Shown here: one piece after another, positions 50,600-53,644 of the stretch
Numbering within the stretch: position 1 is the stretch's first letter
Layout: every line of letters starts with the position of its first letter
Source: Candidatus Ruthia sp. Cpac_8_S14
GTDB taxonomy: Bacteria; Pseudomonadota; Gammaproteobacteria; PS1; Pseudothioglobaceae
Length of the DNA: 64,000 nt
Reading direction: 5' to 3'
NCBI GenBank assembly: GCA_021730205.1
Contig: CP072533.1
Coordinates: forward strand, 1,021,380 to 1,085,379
Made by a program: the position numbers and the translations under genes
The notes under the pieces: generated by a model
What the model was told of the DNA's origin: nothing
What the model saw: only the letters and a program-made list of their open reading frames with translations
Databases searched by the model: none

Positions 50600-51205
50600 A
50601 TGAAACATTTAAATTCAACACAAGCAAAAAAAAGACTGGTTGATGGTAATCAACGCTTTGTTGATGGCACTGCATTGAATTATAAATTTCACCCCCATAG
50701 ATATACAAAAGACATACAGAATCAATCGCCTTTTGCGATTGTAATAGGTTGTTCTGATTCAAGAGTACCAATTGAGACTATTTTTGATCAGAGTTTTGGA
50801 GATTTGTTTATTATTCGCATTGCAGGAAATATAGTAGCCCCATCACAAATGGGTAGTGTTGAGTTTGCAATCTCAAAATTTAAGGCCTCCTTAATTATGG
50901 TATTAGGGCACTCTAACTGTGGTGCTATTAGTGCTACTATTGATGAGTGCATCAATAAAACATATTTATCAGACAGTCTTCATTCTATTACTGATAGGAT
51001 AAAGCCATCAATTCTACCCTTAATCAACTTGAATTTGCCAAATCATAAATTAATGAACAAGGCTGTTGAGGTTAATATTGTTCATTCTGTCAAACAATTA
51101 CAAAGCCAATCACTAATCATTAAAGAGGCTATCGAGAATAATAAACTAGAGGTTATAGGTGCTAGCTACTCTTTAAAATCAGGTACAGTTCAGTTTTTGA
51201 CTTAA
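50600..51205 (+). CDS. Beta-class carbonic anhydrase
   Basis: A 201-residue protein. Zinc ligands are Cys and Asp in VIGCSDSRVPIETIFDQSFG, and His and Cys in MVLGHSNCGAISATIDE. IRIAGNIVAPSQMGSVEFAI matches the fold. There is no signal peptide, so it is cytoplasmic. It hydrates CO2 to bicarbonate reversibly. Position directly after the SLC13-type transporter suggests co-transcription. It is convergent to rimM, with 34 bp between the stops. Confidence 0.95.
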   Translation: MKHLNSTQAKKRLVDGNQRFVDGTALNYKFHPHRYTKDIQNQSPFAIVIGCSDSRVPIETIFDQSFGDLFIIRIAGNIVAPSQMGSVEFAISKFKASLIMVLGHSNCGAISATIDECINKTYLSDSLHSITDRIKPSILPLINLNLPNHKLMNKAVEVNIVHSVKQLQSQSLIIKEAIENNKLEVIGASYSLKSGTVQFLT

Positions 51206-51239
51206 TTCTCTTTTAGACTTTTGGATTGAACCAATCTGT

Positions 51240-51764
51240 TTAAAAATTCTCACCCCAATCAACTAAAATAGTTTGATTATCCATATCTACTTTGATTAAA
51301 AATGGCGAGATATAAGGCACCCAATACTCTCTCTTACCATTAATCACGAGCACATTGTTTGAGCCAGTATCAACCAAATTAGACACTTTACCAAGCACAA
51401 TTTTCGCCTTATTGATTACTTCTAAACCAATTAAATCGTCCCAATAATACTCACCTGCTTTAAGTTGTGGTAATTGTAATTTTTTAATATACAGATCAGT
51501 GCCCATATAAGCCCTAGCTTGTTCTTTATCAAAAACATCTTTGATTTGCGCCACAATGGTTTTACCTTGCACGCGACCTTGAACAATCTCCAAGGTTTGC
51601 CAATTGCCATCAACATTGATATGCCACGGCTGATAAGATAAGATATTTTTTCTTGGATGGGTGTGGGAGAAAATTTTCACCCAGCCTTGAACGTCAAAAA
51701 GGCCATTAACCTGCCCGATTAATAGCCTTTTGTTGTCAGATGTAGAAAGTCCTGAATTACTCAG
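51240..51764 (-). CDS. rimM: Ribosome maturation factor RimM, probable CTG start
   Basis: The coding frame has no ATG, GTG or TTG until a GTG at 51680, which would remove the first beta strand. Between the rpsP stop and that GTG the frame stays open and reads NKRLLIGQVNGLFDVQGWVK, the conserved RimM N-terminus. A CTG at 51764 preceded by AGGAAAAGG gives a 174-residue protein starting MSNSGLSTSD, equal in length to E. coli RimM. ILSYQPWHIN and the PRC barrel (YYWDDLIGLEVINKAKIVL, DTGSNNVLVINGK) follow. It helps 30S head maturation. trmD and rplS, the usual next genes, are absent here. Confidence 0.85.
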   Translation of the reverse strand: MSNSGLSTSDNKRLLIGQVNGLFDVQGWVKIFSHTHPRKNILSYQPWHINVDGNWQTLEIVQGRVQGKTIVAQIKDVFDKEQARAYMGTDLYIKKLQLPQLKAGEYYWDDLIGLEVINKAKIVLGKVSNLVDTGSNNVLVINGKREYWVPYISPFLIKVDMDNQTILVDWGENF

Positions 51765-51815
51765 TGGCCTTTTCCTATTCTGTTGCTCAGTAGTTTTTGC
51801 TTGCTGAGTAGCAAA

Positions 51816-52082
51816 TTATGCACGCTTTTCATGAATTGAAAGGTCTTTGAACCCTTTAACAAGTTGCTTAACACGATTAGAGGTTTGTGCGCCTTGTGAT
51901 ACCCAGTACGCTAATCTATCTTCATCGAGACTCAGCCTAACTTCTTGTCCACGGGCAACTGGATTAAAATATCCAAGTCGCTCAATGTAACCACTGTCTC
52001 TACGTTTTCTAGAGTCTGTTGCTACAATTGAATAAAAAGGTTTTTTCTTAGCTCCACCTCGGGCTAGTCTAATTCTAACCAT
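51816..52082 (-). CDS. rpsP: 30S ribosomal protein S16
   Basis: An 88-residue protein with the S16 pattern [40 protein letters not shown] and [20 protein letters not shown]. It is first of the rpsP-rimM pair. Its stop is in the same frame as rimM, 51 bases before the CTG. Confidence 0.97.
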
Positions 52083-52144
52083 GGGTTTTTTTGCTCCTTT
52101 TGTGTTATAATTAACTTATACTAAAAAGATATAAGACTCGAATA

Positions 52145-53572
<1,428 letters not shown>

Positions 53573-53644
53573 TTATGATACGAAAAAAGATACAGAAATA
53601 AAATGATAAAATTATACACTTTATTATTTTGTACAAGGACTCAG

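Follow-up and report, generated by a model that had tools for sequence, protein, structure and literature searches.

Introduction

Ribosomal protein S16, encoded by rpsP, is required in ribosomal amounts, RimM in much smaller ones. The closest described system is the Escherichia coli rpsP-rimM-trmD-rplS operon where, as at the locus described here, rimM comes after rpsP; in E. coli, RimM lies far below S16 (PMC4378010, PMC8643618). According to excerpts of these two articles, ribosome density is ten-fold lower on rimM than on rpsP at an even mRNA depth (PMC4378010), and TrmD is found about 40-fold below S16 (PMC8643618), the low output of trmD being put down to a strongly folded mRNA where its open reading frame begins (PMC4378010, PMC8643618). 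The E. coli operon acts by translation and has trmD following rimM (PMC4378010); in contrast, trmD lies elsewhere in the genome studied here, the candidate start of rimM is a CUG and the gene carries a hairpin of terminator form.

Conserved non-canonical start codons can hold a gene below its operon partner or serve autoregulation via IF3, as reported, in the excerpts of the article available, for sigR, whose misannotated and IF3-dependent GTC start is found in 32 of 34 Streptomyces species, and for infC, which starts with AUU or AUC (PMC5472188). By comparison with sigR and infC, which are other genes with other codons, the rimM CTG overlaps the upstream stop codon in related genomes and is paired with a hairpin in the coding region. 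In E. coli, a CUG start yields 0.86% of the product obtained with AUG (PMC11497404, citing Hecht 2017), and a survey of 36 groups, covering some 69,000 ancestral starts, reconstructs just four that switched to CUG (PMC5622118, in excerpt). Internal terminators are another means of setting operon ratios; in the ABC importer operons of Ruminiclostridium cellulolyticum they combine long stems with paired U-tracts and a low U content, and a stem-loop that comes after a highly expressed first gene reduces the output of the following one, as is proposed here for rimM (PMC9045158). However, the available text of that article describes these terminators as intergenic, whereas the rimM stem lies within codons 12-23 of the next gene and is constrained by its codons. 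Among the matches listed in a literature search that covered few subscription journals, none describes a CUG start of rimM or a hairpin within its coding region, and none joins internal terminators, ribosomal proteins and stoichiometry; in the literature on this bacterial group, rimM is not mentioned among the matches listed.

The rpsP-rimM locus and the genomes compared

The window, that is, the whole stretch of DNA analysed (64,000 nucleotides; contig CP072533.1, positions 1,021,380 to 1,085,379), belongs to Candidatus Ruthia sp. Cpac_8_S14, whose complete genome is reduced (1.18 Mb; 1,184,132 bases) and which is most likely a thiotrophic symbiont within the SUP05/Thioglobus family, whose members are marine sulfur bacteria and symbionts of clams. 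The features of the locus are collected in Table 1. The end of rpsP lies 51 bases upstream of the CTG, and the end of rimM at 51240 faces a convergent gene at 50600-51205, presumably a carbonic anhydrase. RimM matches PF01782 in a profile search with 65.1 bits against a curated cut-off of 23.5, over model positions 2-82 of 84. In this genome the rpsP-rimM-trmD-rplS operon is broken up, with the sole trmD match at 754 kb and rimM at 1,073 kb; trmD is beside rimM in none of the 41 family loci that have at least 500 bases behind rimM, and directly behind it in 12 of 12 outgroup loci.

Table 1. Features of the rpsP-rimM region (coordinates are those of the window)
Feature	Position	Strand	Basis
rpsP, ribosomal protein S16, 88 aa	51816..52082	-	Open reading frame and sister comparison
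rimM coding sequence of 174 codons and a stop, subject to purifying selection	51240..51764	-	Open reading frame, Pfam match, dN/dS
CTG, inferred rimM start codon; aligned CTG in 12/12 genus members	51762..51764	-	Sister alignment
Shine-Dalgarno-like AGGAAAAGG ahead of the CTG	51768..51776	-	Duplex with 16S tail, -4.4 kcal/mol; CCTCC in 16S 3' end
Remnant of ancestral S16 tail (ATQQAK...TTEQ...), now intergenic	51765..51815	-	Alignment to sister G010
Conserved 15-bp hairpin with 5-nt loop, rimM codons 12-23, terminator-like, covarying across the family	51697..51731	- (mRNA strand)	Folding and covariation
T5 tract closing the hairpin, invariant in 72/72 family sequences	51696..51700	-	Alignment

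A RimM match was obtained in 74 of 83 family genomes and 73 loci were used, G015 being excluded for a partial match at a contig end. G060, with divergent rimM and rpsP genes and trmD beside rimM, was dropped as probable contamination, and the count of start codons (70 genomes) also leaves out G075 (contig end) and G103 (Ns). The hairpin counts rest on 72 family sequences, 51 of them distinct, the tree on the 62 loci that also hold rpsP, and the genus comparison on the window genome and 11 sisters, 12 in all.

The start codon of rimM

From the rpsP stop (TAA, 51818-51816) to its own stop at 51240, the rimM frame is uninterrupted, and a reading of the open frames in the window and its sisters confirms the original prediction that no ATG, GTG or TTG would give a full-length protein. 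As that prediction also held, rimM in the window genome is in frame with rpsP, the first standard start is the GTG at 51680, which removes LLIGQVNGLFDVQGW, and the CTG at 51764 gives a RimM of normal length. The GTG would leave 146 amino acids. A run of about 30 codons without a standard start is, by our estimate, not rare by itself in an AT-rich frame; judging from the genomes compared, what is beyond chance is an intact gene together with the same CTG recurring in its relatives. No sister has a normal ATG at the aligned place. CTG-AGT-AAT stands there in 12/12 genus genomes (with ATT for AGT in one), a finding that strongly supports the CTG as start, and in 11 of the 12 the 20 codons ahead of the conserved core contain no ATG, GTG or TTG. 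Besides its CTG, G006 carries an ATG eight codons further downstream, and G002 has standard codons 24-28 codons upstream of the core, within rpsP.

The existence of other near-cognate codons raises the question as to whether a shorter RimM might be initiated further downstream. AAG or AGG at position -1 of the core occurs in 11/12 genus genomes, ATC or ATT at +2 in 10/12 and ATT at +5 in 11/12; however, these codons sit in or at the conserved core, inside the hairpin described below, and encode conserved residues. CTG is the sole near-cognate upstream of the core common to all 12 (in one register in 11, shifted by one codon in G006). The internal GTG at 51680 is not conserved, being GTT or GTA in 5/12. 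Initiation at one of these codons is thus very unlikely, and CUG 51764 is very probably the start of rimM; translation would begin on it with initiator fMet and yield a RimM of 174 residues.

Of the 70 family genomes that could be classified, 31 have no standard start within 20 codons, and the CTG is present in all 31; the remainder comprise 8 with the CTG and a standard start, 30 with a standard start only and one in which rpsP and rimM are fused. As a standard start is nearby in 38 of the 70, eight of them beside the CTG, the CUG is not required. On the tree, most genera have the CTG, and it has changed several times to GTG, TTG or ATG; the 29 CTG-only rows need at least 9 changes, compared with 20.9 in shuffles. 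Two sets of class controls from outside the family, which may share genomes, have a standard start within 25 codons in 35/35 loci (in one of them only at -24) and in 85/88 loci. Three loci from two other gammaproteobacterial families, L179 (G162), L194 (G286) and L261 (G231), have a rimM without ATG, GTG or TTG within 25 codons of the core. The N-termini of rimM in SUP05-type bacteria and in clam and mussel symbionts may consequently be misannotated, and a CUG that several genera retain in a housekeeping gene which is still intact would offer a natural test case for the keeping of a start that, on the E. coli figure, yields about 1% of the AUG product.

Two further accounts of the missing start codon had been put forward in the original prediction. 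The first, that readthrough of the rpsP UAA makes an S16-RimM fusion, draws on the frame shared by the two genes in the window and on a distant family genome, G061, whose rpsP and rimM form a single open frame. It is contradicted by the sisters: the two frames differ in 7 of 11, and the other four (G001, G004, G005 and G008) have in-frame stops between rpsP and the CTG. The shared frame itself has a local history. In comparison with the closest sister, G010, the rpsP tail of the window has gained a 6-base insertion, the source of the TAA, and has lost stretches of 63 and 13 bases, a total that is not a multiple of three, so that rpsP and rimM share a frame here and are in different frames in G010. 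Readthrough is therefore extremely improbable as the source of RimM. In G061, the open frame (L050, 892-1500) keeps the hairpin; this is either a natural fusion or an assembly error in a repeat-rich tail, the genome being a metagenome assembly.

The second account holds that rimM is starting to fail, or that a sequencing error hides an ATG, and it would suit a reduced genome in which the S16 tail is decaying. Yet rimM is under purifying selection, with dN/dS of 0.08-0.29 against the sisters (0.076-0.159 against ten of them and 0.287 against the nearest, where dS is only 0.07); values so far below 1 indicate that the gene is not failing, and the protein stands above the Pfam cut-off. A sequencing error would have to be reconciled with the same CTG in 11 other assemblies of the genus. 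Decay or error can hardly be credited here.

A conserved hairpin within the rimM coding sequence

The CTG start is the part of the original interpretation that stands; together with readthrough and decay, its hairpin between the genes (TTGCT ... AGCAA, 51781-51814) does not, as this segment has a z of -0.23 and 75 of 200 shuffles fold as well. Overlooked was a hairpin inside rimM itself, where folding of the region gives a stem at codons 12-23 with 15 pairs, a 5-base loop and a following T5. All 15 pairs form in 65 of the 72 family sequences, and 98.8% of the cells of the alignment pair, as against at most 60.7% with slid partners. Cells changed on both sides number 48, compared with 16.7 +- 4.1 in shuffles, none of 500 of which reaches 48; the counts of doubly changed pairs (5) and of further pair types (16) are unremarkable, 60 and 74 of the 500 shuffles being as high.

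As the residues encoded by the stem are conserved, a synonymous recoding control was applied, with codons drawn from the same genus and 400 recodings per sequence. In 62/72 sequences none of the 400 recodings folds as well, and 1.3% of the recodings of the window sequence form 15 pairs. Changes in the stem across the family are compensatory and fall on third bases, and leave 120 G-U cells and no A-C cells, an asymmetry that indicates selection on the mRNA strand rather than on DNA or an antisense RNA. Leucine codons within the stem are restricted, Leu8 being CTT in 44/44 and Leu1 always either TTA or TTG, whereas five or six codons occur at leucines elsewhere. In the two sets of class controls, the corresponding region forms 4-11 of the 15 pairs in 35 loci, and 3-11 in 87 of 88 loci with 13 in the remaining one. 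An Rfam search of positions 51000-53600 of the window gave no match above chance, with one weak unrelated hit (E 2.7, plus strand). The hairpin is thus almost certainly a selected mRNA structure and, like the CTG, it traces deep into the family. A covariance model of it matched 8 of 369 class genomes, of which four are family members. The other four, all weak matches (G172, G300, G329 and G417), are palindromes resembling intrinsic terminators and lie away from rimM and rpsP, and a wider spread of the hairpin was rejected on this ground.

A long, covarying hairpin confined to the mRNA strand could be a binding site through which S16 or RimM represses the message, in the manner of a ribosomal protein leader placed within a gene, and an S16 leader upstream of rpsP-rimM has been proposed for Flavobacteria (PMC7247131, in excerpt). 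However, the stem is simple and perfect, its loop varies (columns 18-20), and no conserved unpaired motif beyond GG is seen, while in the T-tract a third base is conserved although unpaired. Such a role is quite unlikely.

A putative partial terminator

The elements of the hairpin are an A-tract, a stem with G-C pairs at its foot in most genomes and a T-tract. In 51 family loci that retain the rpsP tail, the distance from the rpsP stop to the hairpin is 22-31 bases (at least 55 in truncated ones), as would be expected of an rpsP terminator. The last Phe codon has T at its third base, which is outside the stem, in 72/72 sequences, and among 14 conserved columns with codons ending in C or T this Phe of the T-tract is the only one that never has C. 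Under the stem and T-tract rule of this analysis, 65 of 72 family sequences are terminator-like (the rule missed 7), compared with 5 of 88 class controls. A separate terminator scan of positions 51000-53600 of the window found none, probably owing to the continuation of the stem through the T-tract; the latter is short, T5 followed by G. On this evidence the hairpin would seem to be a partial intrinsic terminator, a reading somewhat better than even and well short of the confidence placed in the structure itself. Its most likely action would be on rpsP transcripts, and it may be passed or opened when rimM is translated. Since trmD adjoins rimM in none of the 41 family loci examined for it, premature termination within rimM would not cost TrmD. 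Near codon 0 of rimM, and so almost at the position of this hairpin, the unrelated gammaproteobacterium G041 (L005) carries a different terminator-like stem, GGCCAG-GTTT-CTGGCC-TTTTT, perhaps a convergent one.

Overlap with rpsP and a proposed control of RimM dosage

Family members with an untruncated rpsP have a long Ala/Lys/Glu-rich C-terminal tail on S16, the whole protein measuring 120-272 aa, and in free-living relatives the CTG overlaps the rpsP stop as CTGAGTAA; in these genomes it is partly dictated by the codons of rpsP. The family ancestor probably had the same overlap, with the CUG behind a Shine-Dalgarno site, an arrangement in which ribosomes finishing S16 could reinitiate on the CUG at low efficiency. 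The S16 tail has been lost or shortened in several symbiont lineages, among them some in which the overlap is gone and the CTG retained. In the window genome and in G001, G002, G004, G005, G006 and G008, rpsP ends 61-127 bases ahead of the core and leaves the CTG uncovered. All 7 retain CTG-AGT-AAT, though a C-to-T change would make TTG, whereas of the 27 four-fold sites whose residue is conserved only 8 are invariant in the same genomes; the CTG is thus not a mere by-product of overlapping genes. Truncation of rpsP is also seen in G090, which belongs to another genus; there the aligned codon has become the standard start TTG, as would suit initiation at this position. With tail and overlap decayed in the window genome, the CUG would now have to act from its own Shine-Dalgarno site, whose duplex is given in Table 1; genus members with an intact tail have -6.0 to -9.1 kcal/mol.

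A weak CUG start and a nested partial terminator would both lower RimM relative to S16, and this joint explanation of the two elements is the one favoured here, with some reserve. If it is correct, the need for less RimM than S16 may be met by different means in different lineages. An alternative, which is possible though clearly less likely, is that the CUG has no purpose and arose by drift within the rpsP overlap, tolerated as little RimM is needed, and that the hairpin is unrelated to rimM and serves, for instance, to protect the 3' end of the rpsP mRNA. The codon can indeed change, as in the lineages with GTG, TTG or ATG, RimM is made at a low level elsewhere too (PMC4378010), and the distance of the hairpin from the rpsP stop would suit mRNA protection. 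Such drift is harder to reconcile with the age of both CTG and hairpin within the family and with the CTG persisting in all seven genomes of the genus with a truncated rpsP, where a C-to-T change would make TTG; in G090, of another genus, the codon did change.

Beyond the joint lowering of RimM by start codon and terminator, the CUG might also act as a sensor: immature 30S subunits, or a low level of IF3 on them, would discriminate less against CUG and more rimM would be translated when 30S maturation lags, the ribosome opening the nested terminator as it proceeds. This reading is speculative and improbable; were it true, RimM would be tied homeostatically to its own job, as is infC, through a translation-gated attenuator inside the gene.

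In the Vesicomyosocius group the hairpin is at its weakest (13-14 of 15 pairs), and the Shine-Dalgarno duplex is weak or gone in four genomes of this type (-0.5 to -1.4 kcal/mol); in L033, L036, L037 and L040, Shine-Dalgarno site and hairpin are both eroding and CTG-AGT-AAT stays.
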